This document shows, piece by piece, positions 14,054 to 39,514 of a DNA stretch of 53,015 nucleotides. This DNA comes from an uncultured Bacteroidales bacterium (GTDB lineage: Bacteria; Bacteroidota; Bacteroidia; Bacteroidales; UBA932). The stretch lies in the NCBI GenBank assembly GCA_946410455.1, contig CAMKAJ010000014.1:1-53015 (forward strand). The letters run 5' to 3'. Made by a program: the position numbers and the translations under genes. Position 1 is the first letter of the stretch. Every line of letters begins with the position of its first letter. Under the pieces are notes generated by a model, which saw only the letters and a program-made list of their open reading frames with translations, did no database searches and had not been told where the DNA came from.

Positions 14054-15799
14054 TTAGAAGGCTGAGTAATCGATGGTGAGCGAGCTGCAATAGTAGTTAT
14101 TCACCTTGCCGCTCATGGGAATGGTCTGTATGGCCTTTACCTCCCAGTTCTTCTCTGCAGAAGGATTGCCGCTTGCGGGTACGAAGTACCAGTAATGGCT
14201 GGCTGTCTTGTTTGCCCACGATGTGGTGTTCTTGCCAAGCTCGTTGAAGAAGTATGAGCTCAGGCACACATTGCAGCAGCTGCCGTTGGCCAGCTTCTGG
14301 AAGTCCCCGATCTTTACTCCGTTCTGCCACATCTCGACCTTCCAGTTTTTGTCGTCGTCGTTGAATACCTCGGCTACGAATGCGTTCTTGAGCTTTGTGC
14401 TTCCGGTGGCGGTAATGTTGCCGGAGCCTCCAATGTTGGAGGTCCTGCACCACTGGTAAGTATAACCTTTAGATCCGGAATAAAGCTGGTTGCCGTCGTA
14501 CACGCGAAGCTGGTAATCTGCGGTGCGATTTGATCCTATGTCTATCCAGTTTACGATAGAGTTGCCTTCTACCTCATAGACGCTGTATCCGTTGGGCTGT
14601 CCCGTTACGTTGGAATCGCAACTCCACCATGCGCCGCAGGCTGCACCATGGATGTGTTCGTATATGGGCTGGCCATTCTTGCAAACGTAAGACTCGTGAA
14701 TGTAGTTCTGCGAATAATGGGTATGGCCAATCATTATGTGGGCTTCGCCGAACTGCCTGAGCAGGTCGAGGACGTCGGTATAAAAAGCGCTCTTGTTGAA
14801 TCCGCTTCCGTCCGTGGCTCCGGCCCTCATGGGGATATGCATGCACAGGACGACCATTTTCTTACCCTTGTCGGTCACGTAAGACAGGTCTTGCTTGAGC
14901 CAGTTAAGCTGCGTCTGGGTAAAGCCTCCCTTGTACTCCCAAGTGTAACCGTTGGGCTTAGAACTCTTCTTGATGCTTGTGCACTGGATATCATCCATTA
15001 CGATGATATGAGCGTCGCCCCTGTTGAAAGAATAGTCGGTAGGGCCGAAATACTTGAAGAATTCCTCTGTGGCGTCGAAATCGGAGCTCTGTACGAGGGA
15101 ATTATGGTCGTGGTTCCCTATGCACTGAAAGATTGGGAACCATCCGCCGTCCTGCAATTTGAGGTTGGACATAGACTGCCTCATATTGCCCCACATATTG
15201 GTGCTGTCGAATACAATGTCTCCGAGGGTTATACCGTAGGCGTTGGGGTACTTCCCTTTGGCATGAGCGTCATTGAGCGTGGCCAGCATGCTGGGAACGG
15301 TCTCCTGAGTGTAGCGGGATACTTCAGAAGTGTTGCTGCACTGAGGGTCACCAATCATTACGAGGGTGAACTTCTTCTCAAGCTCCTGGGGCTCCAGCTT
15401 GAAGTCTATGCGCTGTATGGCCTTGGCCTTATCCCTTGTTTTGTAGATTGCCGGCAAGTGGGCATTGTTGTCAAGAGGTATCTTATAAGCGGCCGGTACC
15501 GACATGTAAACCACGCGGCAGTAACGGCTGGCCTTCATCTGATATACTCCGTTGGCGTCTGTCACCACATAGCTGTAGCCGTCTGTAACGGGCACATCGG
15601 GAATGCCCTTGCCGGAAGTGTCAGAAATAAGTCCGCATACGGACATACCTTCTTCTATTGTGGTCCCGTTGATGACATCTACTTTTTCTTCATCACCTCC
15701 CGAAGGTTTCTCCGGATCTACGGGCTTAGGTTCGCAGGCGTAGCCTGCAAGTGCTATGGCGGCAAGCGCCACCAGTTTTAAAATACTTCTTGACTTCAT
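14054..15799 (-). CDS. Calcineurin-like metallophosphoesterase lipoprotein
   Basis: A 581-residue surface or periplasmic lipoprotein of the Bacteroidota calcineurin-like phosphoesterase family with both N- and C-terminal accessory domains. After the signal (LAGYAC, lipid Cys about residue 22) and a Pro/Glu linker comes a beta-sandwich (about 45-140), then the metallophosphoesterase core. Core motifs are GDPQ (150-153, the family variant of D-x-H), LGD (192-194), GNHD (228-231), CMHIPM and GHTH. The start at 15799 (MKSRSILKL) puts the lipoprotein signal at the N-terminus; an upstream in-frame ATG at 15868 would hide it. Last gene of the susC-susD operon, suggesting it removes phosphate from the imported substrate. 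Confidence 0.88.
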   Translation of the reverse strand: MKSRSILKLVALAAIALAGYACEPKPVDPEKPSGGDEEKVDVINGTTIEEGMSVCGLISDTSGKGIPDVPVTDGYSYVVTDANGVYQMKASRYCRVVYMSVPAAYKIPLDNNAHLPAIYKTRDKAKAIQRIDFKLEPQELEKKFTLVMIGDPQCSNTSEVSRYTQETVPSMLATLNDAHAKGKYPNAYGITLGDIVFDSTNMWGNMRQSMSNLKLQDGGWFPIFQCIGNHDHNSLVQSSDFDATEEFFKYFGPTDYSFNRGDAHIIVMDDIQCTSIKKSSKPNGYTWEYKGGFTQTQLNWLKQDLSYVTDKGKKMVVLCMHIPMRAGATDGSGFNKSAFYTDVLDLLRQFGEAHIMIGHTHYSQNYIHESYVCKNGQPIYEHIHGAACGAWWSCDSNVTGQPNGYSVYEVEGNSIVNWIDIGSNRTADYQLRVYDGNQLYSGSKGYTYQWCRTSNIGGSGNITATGSTKLKNAFVAEVFNDDDKNWKVEMWQNGVKIGDFQKLANGSCCNVCLSSYFFNELGKNTTSWANKTASHYWYFVPASGNPSAEKNWEVKAIQTIPMSGKVNNYYCSSLTIDYSAF

Positions 15800-15871
15800 T
15801 TCATTACTTACTTTTTGTGGCCGTTGCGGCCGGCGTACCGGCCGCAACAACCAGTCAAAGCTTTTCAAATA

Positions 15872-17734
15872 TTATTCCCAAAGGACGTTCTGTCCCAGCT
15901 TGGGGTTAACGTTCATAGCGGTCTGGGGGATAGGAGTTAGGTAGAACTTTTCTTCCCATACCATTCTGTGGTTGTAAACAAGGAATCCGTGGGTCTTCTC
16001 GGTGAGGGACAGGGATTCGTTGTTGCCATTGTTCGCAATGGCGTACTGCTCAGAAGTAGTGCTTCCGGAGCCAACCAGAACTTTGCGGGTGAAACCGTTG
16101 ATGTCGAAGCCGTTCTTCACATCGTCCTCGGAGATGTAGAGGCCTCTCCATCCGCCGATATTGCGGTAGCGCCTTACAATTAGGTCTGCGTCGTGCCAGC
16201 GCTTGAGGTCCCACATACGGAAACCACACTCGCATACAAACTCCGTAGCCCTCTCACGGCGGAGCTCGATCTCATAGTTTGTAAGACCGAACTCGTCGGC
16301 ATTGTAATACTCGCGCAGGTAGGTGTCAACCACATAGTCGCTGGAACCGGGATAGATGCTCTTGACACCGGCCCTTTCGCGCAGTGCGCCGATGGTGGTA
16401 TTCCAGGTGAGCTGGTCTATTACGCCTCCGTTAAGCTCGGCCTTGGCTTCTGCATAGTTGAGAAGTACCTCTGCATAGCGGTAAACAGGGATTGAATTAG
16501 TGCAGAAACTGTTGGAATAGTTTGCATAATCTTCCTGGTTCCATTTGCAGAACTGATAACCGGTATGAGTCTGGTCGAAGGGAACAGGCTTGGCTACAGT
16601 CTCGCCGGCACCATTCTTATACTGATGTCCGGGAGGCGATACGGTCTGCGAGAGGCGCCAGTCCCTGTCGGTAAACTCATCCTTGTAAGCTATCTTGCCT
16701 TCGTTGGTAATGGGCTTGCCGTCCAGCTTGAGGTAGTGGTTGATCAAGTCCTTGGTAGGAGAAGGCTGAACACTGTAGGAAGGAGAGTTGAAGTAGTGGG
16801 TGACGTCGTGCCTGACGTTGATGGACTCGTTGGTGGAGCGTCCCCAGATTACCTCTTCTTTCTGAAGCTCGTCCTTCAGGAAAACGTCGCTGTAGGCAGT
16901 CTTGACGTCGCCGCTGTGCAGTCTGTAATTACCGCCGTTGATAAGCTTCTCGCAGGCCCAGACCGCCTCTTTGAGGAAGTCTTCGCTGCCGGCAAGAGGC
17001 TCGCCGGTCTTGGGATCGTTGCTTATCCAGGGCTCACCGTCGGAGTAGTTTACATTGTGATGCTTCCTGTAGGTGCCCTCATACAGACAAACGCGGGACA
17101 TGAAAGTAAGCACAACATCCTGGTTGATGTAGATGCGTCCGTCGGTCACGAACTTGTCTCTCAAACAGTTGTTGGCTGCAAACTTGAGGTCCTGGAGAAC
17201 GTGATTCATCACAACCTCGCGCTTGTCGCGGGGACCGTAGAGAATCAGCGAGTCGGAAGGCTGGAGCACATGTTCGATCCATGGCACGTTACCGAAGGTC
17301 GTAACCTTGGTAAAGTAGAAGCGGGCCCTCCAGAAGCGGGCAACTCCCTCGTAGTGATTGTAAATATCCTCGGGAACGTTGTCCTTGGCCTTCTCCATAT
17401 TGTCCAGCATATAGTTGACGCGGCGAAGGAAAGACCAGTTGCTGGCAGCCCATCCGGAGGCGTCCGCAACCGTATAAGTGCCCTGATACAGCTTGGTAAC
17501 CTTACTTGAGGCCACCAGGTCGCTGTAGAAATCGGAGTTGGAGCAAGGAATATCAGTGAAATCAGGAAGCTGGGACTGGATAAATCCGTCTGTGTACATC
17601 TTGATTTCAGACTCGTTGCTGAAGTAGGAAGGGGCAGGAATAGTATTGGTCGGAGTCCTGTCAAAGAAATCTTTGCAGGAGTTCACGCTTACTACGGCCG
17701 CCGCACCTATGATGATGTATAGTATTCTTTTCAT
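15872..17734 (-). CDS. SusD/RagB family substrate-binding lipoprotein
   Basis: Outer-membrane lipoprotein of 620 residues that closes over a SusC barrel and captures the nutrient. The signal ends VSVNSC; the early sequence CKDFFDRTPTNTIPAPSYFSNESEIKMY is the usual RagB/SusD start. The TPR-like region includes FWRARFYFTKVTTFGNVPW and RYAEVLLNYAEAKAELNG; the C-terminus has LRRERATEFVCECGFRMWDLKRW and ends LTPIPQTAMNVNPKLGQNVLW, all family hallmarks. The start at 17734 follows the susC stop by seven bases. An ATG at 17764 lies inside susC and is rejected. The ligand cannot be predicted. Confidence 0.95.
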   Translation of the reverse strand: MKRILYIIIGAAAVVSVNSCKDFFDRTPTNTIPAPSYFSNESEIKMYTDGFIQSQLPDFTDIPCSNSDFYSDLVASSKVTKLYQGTYTVADASGWAASNWSFLRRVNYMLDNMEKAKDNVPEDIYNHYEGVARFWRARFYFTKVTTFGNVPWIEHVLQPSDSLILYGPRDKREVVMNHVLQDLKFAANNCLRDKFVTDGRIYINQDVVLTFMSRVCLYEGTYRKHHNVNYSDGEPWISNDPKTGEPLAGSEDFLKEAVWACEKLINGGNYRLHSGDVKTAYSDVFLKDELQKEEVIWGRSTNESINVRHDVTHYFNSPSYSVQPSPTKDLINHYLKLDGKPITNEGKIAYKDEFTDRDWRLSQTVSPPGHQYKNGAGETVAKPVPFDQTHTGYQFCKWNQEDYANYSNSFCTNSIPVYRYAEVLLNYAEAKAELNGGVIDQLTWNTTIGALRERAGVKSIYPGSSDYVVDTYLREYYNADEFGLTNYEIELRRERATEFVCECGFRMWDLKRWHDADLIVRRYRNIGGWRGLYISEDDVKNGFDINGFTRKVLVGSGSTTSEQYAIANNGNNESLSLTEKTHGFLVYNHRMVWEEKFYLTPIPQTAMNVNPKLGQNVLWE

Positions 17735-17741
17735 AAAGCGC

Positions 17742-20700
17742 TTATTTAATGATACATACTGCAACGCGGTTGTAGTCCGGAGTTACGGAGGCATCCTTGT
17801 CGGAGCCGATACCCTTGCAAGTGATGCGCTCGGCATCGATGCCGGACTTCACGAGCTTGACTGCCACGGCGTTGGCGCGGTTCTTAGACAGCTCCATGTT
17901 GAACTCGGGAGTGCCGGTGCCGGAATCTGCATATCCGGTGATGACAATCCTGGCCTCAGGGTTATCGTTGAGTATCTGGCAGATACGGCCAATCTTGATG
18001 GCCTCGTCGGGACGAATCTCATACTCGCCGATGACGAAGTAAACCTCTTCGCTGTACTCGCCCTTAAGAGTAGATACAGGAACTTCCACAATCTTCTCGA
18101 CCTCTTTCTCTACCTCCACGATCTTCTCTACTACCTTCTCTACCTCTACTATCTTCTCCACTTCCTTGACCTCGGTCTTGCGGGAAGACCTGCGGGCTGC
18201 AGTAGATGCGGCTGCGGTAGCGGCGGTGTACTGAGAAGCAGATGAAGGGGCAGATTTGAGCTGCATGCCGCCGAAGGTTACGTTTACGCCGAAGGTTACG
18301 GTCTTGAGCATAGGATATGAGAAGCCGTCGCCCTGGTCGTTAACGGCAGCGTCAAAGTCGCTGTCCTGTCCGATGTTCTCCGGGTCAAACATATTTGTGT
18401 GCTTGTAGATAGGGGAGAAGGTAAACATGTTCTCCAGGGACACATAGAACTTGGCCTGCTCGATGCTGATTCTCTTTGTGAGCTCGGAAGGCAGGGTGTA
18501 GTCCAGAGTAACATTCTTGAGACGCAGGTATGCGGCATCCTGCAGATAGTAGTCGTTCTCGAATCCCAGAGGACCTACGTTACGGTCTGCGCTGTAACCA
18601 ATGCATCTGGTCCAGTAAGGATTCTTGTCTGCGTTGATAACCTTCCAGTTATCGGTGCTGTAGTCGAGCTGTACGCGGTTGTCGCCCATGTGCTCGGCAA
18701 GGAGCGGTCCGTACGGACGCCAGTACATGCCCCAGAAGAAGGCTGAGTGGTTGTCGGGGTACCAGTCACGCTTGCCCACGCCCTGGAGGAACACGGAAAG
18801 GCCGAAGCCGTTCCACTTGAAGTCCAGGTTGATGCCATAGAAGTAGTGGGGAGTTGTGTTGGCTATGCGGTCCAGGTCGCCATGGTCGTCGAGGGTACCT
18901 GCACCGTAGTCAATCTTGCCGTCTCCGTTGATATCGATAAACCTGATGTCACCGGCATGCTCGGCATAGTGTCCTGTACCGTTCTGATGGAACGTGTCTG
19001 TGGCCCAGTTGTTTGCCTCTTCGTTAGACAAGAAGTAGCCGTCGGTACGGAATCCCCACATTTCGCCGAGTTCCTTGCCCTCGTAGAAGTTGAGGATGTT
19101 GCCGTTGGTGTTGTTGAACTTGGTAACCCAGGTGCGGCTGTCCCACACGCTGCCCTTGATGCTGTAGGTGAAGGGCTTACCGGCAAGCTTGAAGTGGTCT
19201 CTCCAGGAGAGGGATGCTTCCCATCCCTTAGTGCGAATGGCTCCGTAGTTTCCCTTAGGTGCACCGGCACCGAAGATCTGAGGAATCTCAGGACCTCCCA
19301 CAATCAGGTTGGTGTTGTCTCTTATATAGTAGTCTCCGGAGAAGGAGAGCCTGCTCTTCAAGAAGTCGAAGTCAAGACCTACGTCGAAGGTGGTGACGGT
19401 TTCCCAGGTAAGGTCGTCGGGAACGACGGAAGGGCTGCTTGTGTAGTAAACAGGAGAGCCGTCGAAGAGCACGGTAGATTTATCCATGCCGATGGTCTCC
19501 AGGAAGTAGTAGGCGGCAATGTTGGAGTTGCCGAGCGAACCCCAGTTAGCCCTGAGCTTGAAGTTGTCCATCCAGCTGCGGCTCCATTCCATCCAGGGCT
19601 CCTCGGATACTCTCCAACCAATGGAGGCAGAAGGGAAGAAACCCCAAACCTGGTTGGCAGGGAATTTAGACGAACCGTCGTAGCGGGCTGCAACCTCGAA
19701 GATGTACCTCTTGAGCAGGGTGTAGTTGGCACGGCCGAAGAAACCCATTGTACCGTAAGTGGTTACGTAGTCCTGGGGCTGGTTGGCCGGAAGAAGCACG
19801 TCCATCAATTCGTAACTAGGTAGGGTGTCGTACTTGATGCCCTTGTACTGGATGTAGTACCTGTCGTATCTGTAGTCCTCTATGTTCCAGCCGCCCACTA
19901 CGTTGAGGTCGTGGTTCTTGCCGAGCTTGGGAGTCCAGGTGGCGACTACGTTACCGGTAATATAATCGGTATTGTTTCTCCAGCGGGATTTGTAAGAAGC
20001 CTCAGGAGTATGGAAGTATCCCAGGGCGCCGGGAGCCTCATAATAAGGGGCAGCGGTAACAACTCGCTCTTGGTGGTTGCGGTTGGCCTTGTAAGATACG
20101 TCGCCACGGAGTTTGAGAACGTTCTTGATAAATTCGAGCTCCAGGCCTACAGCACCGGTGAACTGGGTGGGCTGCTCAATCTGGTAGTCGGTGCCCTTTT
20201 CGTATGTTACGAAGCGGATTGCCTGGCCGTAGTAGGTAGGAGTGCCGTCCTCGTTGTATGCGGGGTAGATAGGCTGGCCTCGGTGCTGGATACGGGAGAT
20301 TGCGGTGTATTTGTCGTTGGTAAACGGCTGGATGTAGTCGCGCCTGTAGTACGAGGTGTTAACGTCAATTTTGGCCCAGTCTGTAACCTTTACGTCACCC
20401 TTTACGCGGAAGTTGAACTGGTTGAACTGCTCGTTGCCAACCTTGTAAATACCTTCCTGGTTGTACCACCTTCCGGATGCGCTGATGCTGGAGCGTTTGC
20501 CTGCAGCGTTTACAGTTACGCTGTGCGACTGGGTGGAGTTGGAACGTTTGTAGAACTCCTCGGCCCAGTTGGTGCTTGCAAAGTATTTGTAGGTCCCGTC
20601 GCTGGCGGTGCCGCCCCAAGGGCTGGTGATGCCTGCGATGCGACGCTGGCGGAATTCCTCCAGGTAATCCTGGCCGAACCACTTTGCCTTGTTGTTCACT

Positions 20701-21620
20701 ACGCTGGGGAAGGAAGGCTCGCCGGCACCTACGCGCCTGTAGTCTTCCATGTAGAACTTGGCATATTCCTCAGACCATACAAGGCCGTCGGTAATCATTC
20801 CGTCTTCCCAGAGCACGGTGCGCTGGTTGATGGAATAGGTTCCGTTGTAGCGGACGGTAACTTTCTCGTCGGCAGCCTTCTTGGTGGTAACGAGCACAAC
20901 GCCGAATGCACCTCTGGCACCGTAAACGGCGGCGGATGCTGCGTCCTTGAGCACGGCTATAGTCTCGATATCATCTGGGTTGACGGAAGAAAGGCTGGCC
21001 TCAACTCCATCTACGAGCACAAGGGCGGAAGTGTCGCCGTTTCCTATGCTGTAGGTAGAGTTGTCGCGGCTCTTCATAGAGGAACGGGCGCTGTAGCTCT
21101 GGGCGTTACCACGCACGTACATGGAGCCGCTGTGGGTAGGCTTGCCGTCGTTCATGACTATGTTCAAACCTGCAACCTGGCCCTGCAGGGCTCTTGCGGC
21201 ATTAGGCGCGGTACGCTGCTCGAGAGCTTCTCCAGAGAGGTTCTCCACGGCGCCTACGAGCTGCGTCTTCTTGAGGGTACCGTAACCTACGACTACAGTT
21301 GCCTCAAGCATTTCCGAGTCTTCTTCAATTACAAAGTCAATCCTGGAGCGGCCGTTTACGGCTTCTTCGCTGTTCTTGTATCCCAGTAACTGGCATACGA
21401 GGACGTCGGAGGCCTTTGCCTTGATGGAATATGAACCGTCAGGATTAGTCATAACTCCGGTGCTGGTGCCTTTGACCATGATGGTGGCACCGATGACGGG
21501 CTCGTTCTGGGTGTCCCGCACTACACCGGTAATCGTAGAAGTCTGTGCGAAGGCTCCGGTCCCTATGAACAGGGCGACGAGTGCCAGCGCAAAGCTTCTT
21601 GGAATCGTGATTTTCATCAT
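17742..21620 (-). CDS. SusC/RagA TonB-dependent transporter fused to a C-terminal OmpA-like domain
   Basis: Outer-membrane importer of 1292 residues. Signal peptide (about 1-26, ending GAFAQ), carboxypeptidase-regulatory-like beta-sandwich (TITGVVRDTQNEPVIGATIMVKG), then a plug with ALQGQVAGLNIVMNDGKP, LVDGVE and VLKDAASAAVYGARGAFGVVLVTTK, and a barrel that ends normally in an aromatic strand at about residue 1116 (TFGVNVTF). There is no STN domain. A 35-residue Ser/Ala linker follows, then Val-Glu-Lys repeats (about 1150-1182), then an OmpA domain (about 1185-1292). The peptidoglycan-binding Asp and Arg appear kept, in GYAD (D1232) and SKNRA (R1248). SusC proteins normally stop at the barrel. 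The barrel C-terminus faces the periplasm, so the added domain is positioned to hold the cell wall. Confidence 0.95.
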   Translation of the reverse strand: MMKITIPRSFALALVALFIGTGAFAQTSTITGVVRDTQNEPVIGATIMVKGTSTGVMTNPDGSYSIKAKASDVLVCQLLGYKNSEEAVNGRSRIDFVIEEDSEMLEATVVVGYGTLKKTQLVGAVENLSGEALEQRTAPNAARALQGQVAGLNIVMNDGKPTHSGSMYVRGNAQSYSARSSMKSRDNSTYSIGNGDTSALVLVDGVEASLSSVNPDDIETIAVLKDAASAAVYGARGAFGVVLVTTKKAADEKVTVRYNGTYSINQRTVLWEDGMITDGLVWSEEYAKFYMEDYRRVGAGEPSFPSVVNNKAKWFGQDYLEEFRQRRIAGITSPWGGTASDGTYKYFASTNWAEEFYKRSNSTQSHSVTVNAAGKRSSISASGRWYNQEGIYKVGNEQFNQFNFRVKGDVKVTDWAKIDVNTSYYRRDYIQPFTNDKYTAISRIQHRGQPIYPAYNEDGTPTYYGQAIRFVTYEKGTDYQIEQPTQFTGAVGLELEFIKNVLKLRGDVSYKANRNHQERVVTAAPYYEAPGALGYFHTPEASYKSRWRNNTDYITGNVVATWTPKLGKNHDLNVVGGWNIEDYRYDRYYIQYKGIKYDTLPSYELMDVLLPANQPQDYVTTYGTMGFFGRANYTLLKRYIFEVAARYDGSSKFPANQVWGFFPSASIGWRVSEEPWMEWSRSWMDNFKLRANWGSLGNSNIAAYYFLETIGMDKSTVLFDGSPVYYTSSPSVVPDDLTWETVTTFDVGLDFDFLKSRLSFSGDYYIRDNTNLIVGGPEIPQIFGAGAPKGNYGAIRTKGWEASLSWRDHFKLAGKPFTYSIKGSVWDSRTWVTKFNNTNGNILNFYEGKELGEMWGFRTDGYFLSNEEANNWATDTFHQNGTGHYAEHAGDIRFIDINGDGKIDYGAGTLDDHGDLDRIANTTPHYFYGINLDFKWNGFGLSVFLQGVGKRDWYPDNHSAFFWGMYWRPYGPLLAEHMGDNRVQLDYSTDNWKVINADKNPYWTRCIGYSADRNVGPLGFENDYYLQDAAYLRLKNVTLDYTLPSELTKRISIEQAKFYVSLENMFTFSPIYKHTNMFDPENIGQDSDFDAAVNDQGDGFSYPMLKTVTFGVNVTFGGMQLKSAPSSASQYTAATAAASTAARRSSRKTEVKEVEKIVEVEKVVEKIVEVEKEVEKIVEVPVSTLKGEYSEEVYFVIGEYEIRPDEAIKIGRICQILNDNPEARIVITGYADSGTGTPEFNMELSKNRANAVAVKLVKSGIDAERITCKGIGSDKDASVTPDYNRVAVCIIK
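18075..18180 (-). repeat. Coding repeats for the Val-Glu-Lys linker of the SusC-OmpA fusion
   Basis: Tandem, slightly varied short units (plus strand: ATCTTCTC and ACCTCT-type words) encode alternating VEK and IVEV units over about 30 residues. Similar linkers occur in ordinary Bacteroidota OmpA-family proteins between barrel and OmpA domain. The tract could change length by slippage or recombination while staying in frame. Confidence 0.7.
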
Positions 21621-21936: not shown

Positions 21937-24309
21937 ATGAAATCAATCAAAATCCTGATCGCTGCCGCTGCCCTCGTATCGGTGCTCCTCTCCGGATGCC
22001 AGAAGGAGAAGGTTGTTACCGGAATAGACAGCACCAAGGCCTGCGTAACGGACTTTACCTATGATGAGTCGATGTCGTCTACTACGGGCATCGCATTCTA
22101 CTGGAACGGAAATGATGCGATAGCCGCAGGAGCAACTTCTTTCTCCGTGCAGCTTGCCAAGAATCCCGACTTCTCCGATGTGGATATGTACAATACCCTT
22201 ATCGGCAGGACTATTCTGGTTACCAGTACCCCCAACGACGGCGTTATGTTCAACGGCCTTGCCGAATATGACAGGTATTATGCCCGTATAAGGGCCAATT
22301 ATCCCTGGTCTGTTTATTCTGAGTGGACAGTTCTCAAGAATGGTGACGCTCTGCTTTGCGTCAGTGTTGGTCACGGTCTTCTGAGCATGTCGTTCGGAGC
22401 TCCCGAGCCCCTTGAGGTTAAGGCAATATCCGAGAGCAAGATAGGTGCTTCCTGGGGTATGATAGGCCTCGCCGAGGGATATGAGTATTCCTGGAAGAAG
22501 ACAGCCGATGCAACATGGTCCGACCCTGTTTCTGTAACTGTTACCAGCGTAGAAATCCAGGGCCTCGCTCCCCAGACGGAATACGACTTCCGCGTGCGTT
22601 CTTTCAGGACCACAGAAGGCGAGAAAGAGTACTCCGAGTACCTTAGCGGCAGCGCAACCACACTCAAGTCAAACTTTATCATGATCAACGCAAAGGAGGA
22701 CTTTGTAGCCTTGCTTGCCAACGGCGCTTCGGCTGCCGGTAGCGACTATTACAAGATCAACGCCGATCTGGACCTCGCCGGCGAAAGCCTGAGCACCCTT
22801 GCTTCCTTTGCAGGAGTTCTTGACGGCCAGGGCCATACGCTTAGCAATGTGGCCGTGACCGGTAACCTTATAGACCAGCTTACCGGTACTGTAAAGGATA
22901 TCAAGTTCTCTGCTCTCACTATCTCCGGATGCCTCGTGGGCAACGTGGCGGTGGGCGCTCTTGTAAGCGGAGTAGATGTTGCTGCCAACTCCAGCATCAG
23001 CTTCCCCGAGCCTGCAGAAGAAACCAACTACGGTGTCATTGCCGCAAGGAATGCCGGTACTGTAGAAAAATGCACCAATGCTGCTCCCATCACCATGAAT
23101 TATGCCGCTCTTCCTAAAGACAAGAGCTGCAACTGGGGTGGCGTAGTGGGCTATACCGAGGGCCCTGTAAGCGGATGCTCCAACTCTGGTGCAATCGCAC
23201 TGCATGTAGATGCTCCCGGCTCTGGAACTTTCCATACCCTTGGAGGTGTGGTGGGTATGTACAAGGGCGAGCCCGGCCAGTCGCTGGTGCTTAACTGCGT
23301 CAATACCGGAAATGTCTCTGTAGAATATGTGACGGCTGTGTATTTCTACCTGGGCGGTGTGGTCGGCGGTACTCCTTCTGCAAAGGAGACTCCCGGCAAC
23401 TACGGAGTAGCCGAGGGCTGTACCAATGAGGGTAATGTTTACATGCATTACATCAACGGCGGTTCCGGAGCATATCCCAATGCCGGCGGCGTAGTTGGTT
23501 TTGTTGAGGGAGCTATCAAGGGCTGCGTCAACAGAGGTAAAGTATCTATCGAGTGTGATTCCGACAGCGCTACCTGGACCTGCGCACACCTTGCAGGTGT
23601 TGGCGCTACCGTTACTCAGGGCGCATACGATTGCCATAACTACGGCCAGCTTTATGCCAAGGGCCTGTTTGCCGGCGGTACCGACGGTAACCGTGGCGCG
23701 GGCAACGGCACCGGCAAACCCAGCTACTGGGCTGGTGTAATTGCAGCTGCAGGACCTTATAAATCCGACGGAAGCGTTGTGTTCGAGAAATGTACCAACG
23801 AGGCCGACCTCGAGCTTGAGATAGGTACCAAGACCGAAACTCCTAACCAGCAGTGCGGCGGCGTATTCGGTTACGTGACCGGCAAGATCGTGGATTGCCA
23901 CAACAACGGCAACATCACCATTACCTGCCCTTGTGCAATTAACCGTCTGGGCGGTATTGCCGGCGGCTGCAAGTACGAGGTCAGCGACTGCTCCAACAAG
24001 GGTAATCTTACAGTTATCCATAAAGGTACCGTAAAGACTGACTGGAGGGCATTTATCGGTGGTATCGTGGCCGATGCCAGCCAGGCCGGCGCCACTACCT
24101 ATACCAATTGCTCCAACAGCGGCAAACTCTCATTCGAATCAAGCTGCACCCTCTCTACCAGCAAGACCAGCTGCGTCGGTGGTATTTTGGGCGGCAAGAA
24201 GAGTGGTTCGGAGGTCACATTCACAGGCTGCTCCAACACTGGCGAACTTAGCGTTACCAGCTCCGGCGCATACAGTACAAACCCCGAATGCGGTGGTGAT
24301 TACAACTAA
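21937..24309 (+). CDS. Surface lipoprotein with FN3-like and GLUG-like beta-helix repeats
   Basis: A 790-residue lipoprotein of unknown function (signal ending LLSGC, lipid Cys about 21). Residues about 35-245 look like two fibronectin-III-type modules (second ends GLAPQTEYDFRVRSFRTTEG). From about 255 the chain has GLUG-like repeats, each with GG(I/V)xG followed by C-x-N-x-G-x-V or I (GGVVGYTEG, GGVVGMYKG, GGVVGGTPS, GGVVGFVEG, GGVFGYVTG, GGIAGGCKY, GGILGGKKS), as in the right-handed beta-helix of bacterial adhesins. Probably outer-surface, binding rather than enzymatic. The next gene, 12 bases on, is a paralogue with the same plan. Confidence 0.75.
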   Translation: MKSIKILIAAAALVSVLLSGCQKEKVVTGIDSTKACVTDFTYDESMSSTTGIAFYWNGNDAIAAGATSFSVQLAKNPDFSDVDMYNTLIGRTILVTSTPNDGVMFNGLAEYDRYYARIRANYPWSVYSEWTVLKNGDALLCVSVGHGLLSMSFGAPEPLEVKAISESKIGASWGMIGLAEGYEYSWKKTADATWSDPVSVTVTSVEIQGLAPQTEYDFRVRSFRTTEGEKEYSEYLSGSATTLKSNFIMINAKEDFVALLANGASAAGSDYYKINADLDLAGESLSTLASFAGVLDGQGHTLSNVAVTGNLIDQLTGTVKDIKFSALTISGCLVGNVAVGALVSGVDVAANSSISFPEPAEETNYGVIAARNAGTVEKCTNAAPITMNYAALPKDKSCNWGGVVGYTEGPVSGCSNSGAIALHVDAPGSGTFHTLGGVVGMYKGEPGQSLVLNCVNTGNVSVEYVTAVYFYLGGVVGGTPSAKETPGNYGVAEGCTNEGNVYMHYINGGSGAYPNAGGVVGFVEGAIKGCVNRGKVSIECDSDSATWTCAHLAGVGATVTQGAYDCHNYGQLYAKGLFAGGTDGNRGAGNGTGKPSYWAGVIAAAGPYKSDGSVVFEKCTNEADLELEIGTKTETPNQQCGGVFGYVTGKIVDCHNNGNITITCPCAINRLGGIAGGCKYEVSDCSNKGNLTVIHKGTVKTDWRAFIGGIVADASQAGATTYTNCSNSGKLSFESSCTLSTSKTSCVGGILGGKKSGSEVTFTGCSNTGELSVTSSGAYSTNPECGGDYN

Positions 24310-36159: not shown

Positions 36160-39100
36160 ATGAAGAAGGTCAAATTAATGACTCTGGTTTGCGCTCTGGC
36201 CCTGGTTCTGTCGGAGGGGGGGGGTATTTTCTCAAGCCCCTTCTTCCGGATTGAGTTTCCCGGCCGAGAGCAGAACCGTAGCTGAGCTTATTCACCTGAT
36301 AGAACAGCAGGGTGGCTACTCATTCTTTTACCAGACCAATACTATAGACCTGTCACGCAAGGTGACTGTGGGCGCAGCAAATGATTCAATCGAGGATGTG
36401 CTCAAAAAGGTCTTTCAGGGCTCGGGTGATGAATGGTCTGTTTCTGACAAGCAAATCTACCTCAAACACATTGCTCAGGCGGCCCCCGAACAACCGCAAG
36501 CCAAGAAGGATAAGCTTAAGAGAACCATTACTGGTACCGTTGTGGATGCGGCTGATGGGCTGCCCATTATAGGCGCCGGTATCCAGATCAAAGGCTCCAG
36601 CGTAGGTACAGTAACCGACATCGACGGCCGCTTCAGCATTGATATCAGCGGCAAGAGTGTAGAACTGGTTATAAGTGCCCTCGGCTACAAGGACTTGCAG
36701 GTATTCATTACCGACCAGGGTGTGATAGACGCCAAACTGGAACCAGACAATGAGGTCCTGAGCGAGGTGGTTGTCGTGGGTGCCGGTACTCAGCGCAGGG
36801 TGTCGGTTACTGGTGCTATTGCTGCGATTGACGGTAATACCCTTGTGGCTCCGACTTCTTCGCTCACAAATACTCTGGCAGGAAAGCTCGCTGGTGTTAT
36901 TGCTGTTACCTCCAGCGGACAGCCCGGCAGTACCTCCGACTTCTATATCCGAGGTATCTCCACTTTCGGCGGACGCACGGCCCCGCTTATTCTGCTCGAT
37001 GGCGTAGAGATTACCACATCAGACCTTAACAATATTCCGGCGGAGTCGATTGAGTCGTTCTCTATCCTTAAGGATGCTTCTGCAACTGCGATCTATGGAG
37101 CCCGAGGTGCAAACGGTGTTATGATTGTTACTACCAAGACCGGTTCTGAGAACACCAAGGCTCGCATTAATGTAACTGTAGAGACCTCCGTTCTCCAGCC
37201 CGTCAACATAGTTGAGTATGCCGATGGCGCCACATTTATGGAGGCCTACAACAACGCCCAGCTGGCCCGTAATCCTAATGCCGAGGTGCGCTACAGCCCT
37301 ACCGACATTGCAAATACCCGCAGCGGCCTCAATCCTTATATCTGGCCCAACGTAGACTGGTACGACCTTATGTTCCGCGACTACTCCATGAGCCAGAGGG
37401 CAAACGTGAACGTATCCGGAGGTGGATCCCGCGTCACTTATTACATGAGCCTGCAGATGAACCACGACGGTGGTATTCTAAACGTGCCGCAGAACTACTC
37501 GTTCAACAACAACTACAACCGCTGGCTCTACACATTCCAGAACAACATTGGCTACCAGATATCGCCATCTACCAAGATGACGCTCAAGATGAACGCGCAG
37601 ATTATCAACCAGACCAGTCCGTCCACCTCGGCCAATTCCATCTTCCAGGCGATTTACAATAATACTCCCGTATCCTTCCCCGCAATATTCGACGGCGTGG
37701 AGGGCTACAACCACCTCCTCTTCGGCTCGCAGATAATGAGCGCAGGGCGTTTTTATACCAACCCTTACGCCAATATGCTCAATACCTTCCAGGAGACCAA
37801 CACCAACAAGCTCAACATCTCTGTTACCCTCAACCAGAAACTTGACTTCATAACGGAGGGCCTTTCTATCAACGGATTGGTGAACTTCAACAACTACGCA
37901 TCTACCTGGTACACCCGTTCGCTGAGCCCATATTTGTATAACGTATTGCCCGGCAGTTACGACGTAGAGAATCCTACTACCTTTAGGCTCAACGAATTAC
38001 AGGTGGGTACAGAGTATGTGAGCCAATCGGGCATTTCAACATCCACCAACAACACCTTCTACCTGGACGGACGCATTAACTACGAGCGCTCTTTCGGCCA
38101 TCACAACGTCACCGCAATGCTCATGTACATGATGCGCCAGTATCGCAGCGGCGTGCTGCCCAACCGTAACCAGGGCTTCTCCGGCCGCTTTACCTACGAC
38201 TGGTACAACCGCTACCTTATAGAACTCAACTTCGGATACAACGGTACCGAAAGACTTGCATCCGGCGAACGCTTCGAGCTATTCCCTGCCATATCACTCG
38301 GTTGGGTTCCTTCGAGCGAGCCTTTCTGGCAGTCTCTCCGCCCGGTTGTAGATTATCTCAAGTTCCGAGGCTCCTACGGTCTGGTGGGCAGCGACGAGAC
38401 CGGTACATCGGCCGGTGCAGCTCACTTCCTGTACGAGAATTCTGTGAGCATGAGCGGCGGAACCACCTTCCGCACCGGTTATACCGGCGGTACCGCCCGT
38501 TCCGGCCCCACAGTACTTGCTTATGCAGTTGATGGGGCTCACTGGGAAAGGGCAAAAGAACTCGACCTTGGCTTCGACATGGAAATTATGGAGCAGCTCA
38601 ACATTACTTTCGACTGGTACTACAACCAGCGCGAGCGCATCCTCATGAAGCGAGCATCCTTCCCTAAGAGTCTGGGTTATGCATCTTCAGTGCCTTGGAG
38701 CAACATAGGTAAAGTAGATAATACCGGACTTGAACTCAGCGTGAAGTGGAAGAAGCAACTTACTAAAGATCTCCTCATAGATCTGCGTGGCAACTTCACC
38801 TATGCCAAGAACCAGTACGTCTATGTAGATGAGCCTAACTATCCTTATGTATGGCAGACCGAAACCGGCAAACCGCTCAGCCGCATGACGGGTTATATTG
38901 CAGAGGGCCTCTTCCAGAGCGAAGAAGAAATCGCTACCAGCGCCGACCAGTCGAGTTTCGGTTCTTCCGTGATGGTAGGTGACATTAAGTATCGCGACAT
39001 CAACGGAGACGGCAAGATTACCACCGTGGACCAGGTGATGATATCGCCTTACGGTTCTATGCCGAGAATCCAGTACGGTTTTGGGTGCAGCATCAACTGG

Positions 39101-39514
39101 CGCAAGCTTGATTTTAGCGTGTATTTCAACGGTTCTGCTCTCAGAAACATTATGCTGTCCGGCTTCGAACCCTTCCTCGCCGACGACTCCAACGACCACA
39201 ACCTCATGAAGTGGATCGCCGACGGATACTGGCGCGAGGGAGCTGACAACTCGGCCGCTATATACCCCCGCCTCGGACTCTTGAAGAGCCAGGTGTACAA
39301 CAACCGCCAGCCTTCCAGTTTCTGGGTTCGCCGTGCAGACTTCCTGCGATTCAAAACCATAGAGCTTGGCTGGACCTTCCCCTTTGGCAGGGTGTACGTG
39401 AACGGCGACAATATTGCCGTATGGTCTCCCTTTAAATACTGGGATCCTGAGCTGAACTACTATTCGTATCCGCTCTCCCGCACGTTCAATGTAGGTGTTC
39501 AATTCAAGTTCTGA
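36160..39514 (+). CDS. SusC/RagA TonB-dependent receptor with STN domain, interrupted by a frameshift at a G9 tract
   Basis: Outer-membrane transporter and probable signal receptor, about 1117 residues if read through. A signal peptide starts at ATG 36160 (MKKVKLMTLVCALALVLS), but the nine-G run at 36216-36224 leaves it one base out of frame with the rest and the reading stops at about 36285. With eight (or eleven) G the frame joins into ...VFSQAPSSGLSFPAES... and continues as an STN domain (RTVAELIHLIEQQ; 36270-36475), carboxypeptidase-like domain (ITGTVVDAADGLPIIGAG), plug (LILLDGVEI; ILKDASATAIYGARGANGVMIVTTK) and full barrel ending VGVQFKF. The main frame alone starts only at a TTG (36251) and would lack export. 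Nothing else in the gene is damaged. Confidence 0.9.
36216..36224 (+). repeat. Homopolymeric G9 tract in the SusC signal-peptide coding region
   Basis: Nine consecutive G lie at codons 19-22 of the signal peptide. Tracts of this length are prone to slipped-strand mispairing. Loss of one G restores a single reading frame; the present length is the OFF state if the sequence is accurate. Homopolymer miscalling is the main alternative. Confidence 0.75.

Follow-up and report, generated by a model that had tools for sequence, protein, structure and literature searches.

In the 53,015-nucleotide stretch of an uncultured Bacteroidales genome analyzed here (contig CAMKAJ010000014.1; hereafter the window), one gene encodes a SusC-type importer of the outer membrane whose chain runs on past the end of the barrel into an OmpA-type domain. 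This SusC-OmpA fusion is real and recurs in a group of uncultured gut bacteria. The reading we prefer, at a probability of roughly 0.7, is that the added domain is a peptidoglycan-binding module, as predicted from sequence and structure models, which would anchor the SusCD importer to the cell wall and so tether the outer membrane as well. That the tail would tie the importer to the wall had been proposed in an earlier, sequence-only reading of this DNA; the proposal is supported in that it fits what could be tested, with binding deduced from fold and residues. Beyond that proposal, the tail was seen, in the manner of a cassette, on numerous SusC proteins of one bacterial family that are only distant relatives of one another. 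The sequence-only reading knew of no described SusC-OmpA fusion, and likewise no description of a SusC with a C-terminal OmpA domain was found in the open-access literature searched, where ‘SusC’ was partly matched imprecisely (e.g., to ‘susceptible’). Within that literature the fusion is thus undescribed, and it combines two familiar parts into a SusC variant whose way of spreading is unexpected.

The fusion gene is a single unbroken frame in which the barrel and OmpA parts stand together (Table 1). Its product qualifies as a SusC/RagA transporter by the carboxypeptidase-like domain, the plug, the TonB-type barrel and the adjoining SusD gene, and it matches the SusC/RagA model TIGR04056 with 773.7 bits (cut-off 368.25) over model positions 2-981 of 981. 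As had been expected from the sequence, a Pfam search finds the Plug, the TonB barrel (residues 439-919) and the OmpA domain PF00691 (residues 1194-1278, 60.2 bits against a cut-off of 27.2) in one chain. SusC proteins usually stop at the last barrel strand (background that lies outside the TIGR04056 model itself), and the fusion protein departs from this: F1116 is the final barrel aromatic, in agreement with the normal barrel end placed earlier at about residue 1116, and the same frame runs 176 residues further, where about 175 had been estimated. The coordinates first given for the tail, 17742-18254, take in nearly all of it, but the actual start is at about 18272. The layout suggested for it, a Ser/Ala stretch followed by Val-Glu-Lys repeats and an OmpA domain, was borne out by the sequence and by Pfam. 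The motifs GYAD (residues 1229-1232) and SKNRA (1245-1249) contain D1232 and R1248, both intact as had been claimed, which we take to be the predicted diaminopimelate contacts of the domain. Within the window, a second SusC (36251-39514) stops at its last barrel Phe with no tail, and provides an in-window contrast.

A structure model of residues 93-1292 (mean predicted local distance difference test score, pLDDT, of 70) places the final barrel strand at residues 1105-1117, leaves residues 1121-1183 unstructured at low confidence and forms an OmpA domain after them, which is the arrangement that structure prediction of the post-barrel part had been meant to check. A coiled coil in the linker was not supported, as the model shows the linker without structure. 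The best Foldseek matches of the fusion model were the SusC chains 8aa0 (levan SusC) and 8aa4 (dextran SusC), and the closest fold match of the tail model was an OmpA domain whose solved structure includes a bound diaminopimelate peptide, with the PorE domain 6top also among its matches.

An assembly join or a frameshift might produce such a frame, and the window's source is a draft genome of 50 contigs; yet 41 named draft genomes together supply 73 full-length loci with the same architecture, and 31 same-genus genomes hold tail-bearing frames of at least 1000 aa. The chance of a join or frameshift is next to nil because the architecture is shared by so many separate assemblies, and an assembly artefact was rejected on this recurrence. 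Residues 1117-1292 were compared with long proteins, and Pfam lists both Plug and OmpA in 68 of the 86 matches, window protein included; for a further 17 it lists OmpA but no Plug (ten are 1074-1083 aa long, five are 755-851 aa long and two are unrelated proteins), and one has Plug without OmpA. One SusC near P0006, P0087, exits the frame of the OmpA part inside the tail, possibly by a frameshift. Scanning named genome contigs with a tail alignment yielded 108 relatives, the best 80 of which were kept; at all 80 loci a single frame holds both the SusC profile match and the tail, several of the loci being cut by contig ends. Record titles of the relatives read Bacteroidales or Bacteroidia, and many mention ruminant or ruminant stomach (raw labels with no base rate); the genus may be Cryptobacteroides. 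The tail also occurs in a divergent set of SusC-like proteins, about 1080 aa long, that match the Pfam Plug and barrel weakly or not at all (P0062, P0079, L166, L172, L185, L199, L204 and L218).

Within the genus, the fusion is present in at least 33 of 300 genomes, with up to nine per genome, the per-genome counts being lower bounds with 15 candidates scored in many genomes. SusC was confirmed by profile at one or more loci in 32 of the 33, and G165 was counted by frame length. Tail matches of at least 130 bits fall in frames of 1000 aa or longer in 69 of 73 cases and in short frames in 4; the frame check used 104 rows at about 115 bits or higher, and lower listed rows gave no frame of at least 1000 aa. 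In genome G156, 36 SusC exceed the cut-off, and nine tail matches lie among them, two of which resemble copies of one. For the window's genome the numbers are 21 such SusC and two fusions, of which the second is split across contigs C23 and C49, which share an exact 55-base overlap. A draw of 199 genomes from the family recovered the fusion in the window's genome; three further genomes, all from one sister genus, gave tail matches lying in frames 1211-1225 aa long. Draws from the order (393 genomes) and phylum (395) gave the fusion in the window's genome only, with this tail as bait at strict thresholds, so that a fusion of SusC with some unrelated OmpA domain might escape.

In five of five comparisons the nearest tail-less relative ends exactly on the final residue of the barrel, a Phe four times and a Leu once; the tailed protein extends from that same point, and another gene starts directly downstream in both kinds. 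Pairs were compared among the 73 full fusion loci, seven of the 80 (L164, L181, L195, L201, L166, L199 and L204) being left out with fewer than 850 SusC residues aligned. Where barrels are at most 30% identical (2182 pairs), tails still average 67% identity between genomes and 71% within a genome, and where barrels are 80-90% identical (69 pairs), tail identity spans 58 to 94%. As a control, identity of the next gene follows barrel identity with a Pearson coefficient of 0.93, against 0.37 for the tail (1891 pairs, 62 loci); a usable next gene was available at 62 of the 73 loci, and SusD identity was scanned in 26 next genes, of which 21 match SusD-like_3 and 20 match SusD_RagB. For same-genome pairs with barrels less than 40% identical, tail identity is 0.716 compared to 0.672 with permuted genome labels (45 pairs, p ≤ 2e-4). 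In six pairs chosen for high tail identity, DNA identity climbs in the linker and falls past the stop codon. The tail thus behaves, at the level of sequence, like a cassette of about 400 bases that most likely passes from one susC gene to another through recombination inside the segment bounded by the linker and the stop codon. Such copying is favored over one old tail lost many times, because tails stay alike while barrels and next genes have diverged, and because the order and phylum draws show no fusion elsewhere.

A SusC tree built from 82 fusions and 42 others requires the fusion label to change 20 times, with 17 of the changes forced by starred branches, and a single fusion clade was rejected (p-AU 1.5e-43, 23 rows picked afterwards); closely related importers occur in tailed and tail-less form. 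Among OmpA domains, those of 92 fusions cluster apart from 53 stand-alone ones (support 91, with few columns and long-branch warnings), and this grouping suggests one recruitment of the domain and later spread. Two kinds of linker are seen among fusions, one with Val-Glu-Lys repeats, as in the window, and one rich in Ala. The Ala-rich linker together with a related OmpA domain forms a second tail type (L220, L221, L223-L228; L108, L111 and L114 by grouping); by eye, L224 joins an Ala-rich-type tail to a barrel end resembling that of P0054, itself of the Val-Glu-Lys type. The cysteine C1289 in the last strand (NRVAVC, window ~17754-17756) is nearly invariant across fusion tails.

A tail that spreads by recombination among susC genes might be of little use to the cell, and its presence on many barrel clades with diverse operon genes and its patchiness among genomes would suit that idea. 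Yet its dN/dS of about 0.145 is close to the barrels' 0.127 and its functional residues are invariant, and we consider a tail of little use highly unlikely. The presumed diaminopimelate-binding Asp/Arg pair is retained in 73 of 73 tails, which, with the peptide-bound wall binder as closest fold match, also speaks against the domain having been kept for a use other than tethering, for instance making SusC complexes more stable, bringing them together or recruiting a partner in the periplasm. Domains of this type can organize transporters: the Neisseria wall binder RmpM is reported to complex with TonB-dependent transporters and to affect their oligomers (PMC8497027). Even so, we regard such a non-tethering use as unlikely. 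If the tail acts as a wall tether, it would lie in the periplasm, the side on which barrels of this kind end; the long flexible linker of 57-100 residues would let the OmpA-type domain reach the wall, and the domain would bind diaminopimelate there. The benefit would be tethering of the envelope and importers kept near the wall-associated Ton motor, rather than the handling of one substrate.

Several observations weigh against a mobile wall tether. No fusion was detected in 267 of the 300 same-genus genomes (the fusion counts being lower bounds), and outside its fusions the window's genome showed a single OmpA domain, which belongs to an ordinary OmpA of the small-barrel kind. The structure model does not resolve the linker. 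Spearman coefficients separate the next gene (0.43) from the tail (0.24) less sharply than do Pearson coefficients, and the trees are FastTree topologies with long-branch warnings in which gain and loss are indistinguishable from change counts. Because most same-genus genomes are without the fusion and the ordinary OmpA is kept, the group can do without the tail. That the fusion replaces the ordinary OmpA was rejected, since one remains in the genome.

The fusion shares its N-terminal domain, plug, barrel and adjoining SusD, as well as its best fold matches, with SusC/RagA transporters (8aa0, 8aa4 and RagA 6sln), but differs by its 176 extra residues, which lead past the barrel into the domain of OmpA type. 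Transporters of this kind, 34,893 in all, were classed in one survey by N-terminal domains only (PMC6434023). With OmpA of Bacteroidota it shares the order of barrel, linker and wall-binding domain, except that the barrel is a SusC importer instead of OmpA's small barrel; a small barrel was found in three of five scanned stand-alone relatives of the tail. PMC12611786 gives OmpA and a SusC complex as the two most abundant outer-membrane components of Flavobacterium johnsoniae. RmpM is alike in being a wall-binding OmpA-type domain that works with TonB-dependent transporters (PMC8497027), but it is a separate protein, whereas the fusion's domain is in the same chain as the transporter. Pal and PorE also place an OmpA-type wall-binding domain on an outer-membrane anchor, but both are lipoproteins, while the anchor of the fusion is an importer barrel.

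In a recent study (PMC12204202), PorE is proposed as the tether in Bacteroidota without Pal, and further tether systems are expected to be found. For outer membrane-wall attachment in these bacteria, a tether built from an importer is a concrete candidate, and it bears on whether importers can move within the membrane and on what withstands TonB's pull. Importers with and without the tail coexist among close relatives, so that its effects are directly testable on one SusC. As a tentative extension, SusC-OmpA might be a Ton-powered counterpart of Tol-Pal, in which a hopping wall-anchor cassette tethers the outer membrane via TonB-pulled importers and each species sets which importers anchor.

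Genes next to fusions vary: 20 operon genes scanned include phosphoesterase, GH20, GH18-type, peptidase and other genes, and five of the 20 matched no family at E ≤ 1e-5. The recognizable operon genes differ so widely that a role tied to a single substrate is not favored (though a phosphoesterase lies beside both home-genome fusions, by eye for the second). The molecules that SusCD systems import are varied, and a wall peptide is the predicted ligand of the domain, so that it might bind wall fragments as the importer's cargo or signal, not as an anchor; against this, the operon genes are of many kinds and none seen points to muropeptides, which leaves that role a very slim chance.

Table 1. 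Features of the fusion gene and its neighbors in the window
Feature	Position	Strand	Basis or remark
susC-ompA fusion gene, 1292 aa	17742..21620	-	Pfam, TIGR04056, frame reading
CarbopepD_reg_2 (carboxypeptidase-like) N-terminal domain, residues 30-110	21291..21533	-	Pfam
Plug domain, residues 120-241	20898..21263	-	Pfam
SusC barrel region, residues 242-1116, last residue F1116	18273..20897	-	Pfam, model, Foldseek
Linker, residues 1117-1193, Ser/Ala stretch then Val-Glu-Lys repeats	18042..18272	-	sequence, model
Predicted wall-binding OmpA-type domain, residues 1194-1292, with D1232 and R1248	17745..18041	-	Pfam, fold
susD gene	15872..17734	-	starts 7 bases past the fusion stop codon
Calcineurin-like phosphoesterase gene, after susD	14054..15868	-	Pfam
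790-residue protein with fibronectin type III domain, upstream of the fusion, divergently transcribed	21937-24309

The phosphoesterase gene adjoins both fusions of the window's genome, at 14054-15868 in the window and, by eye, at 1-1389 in L051.
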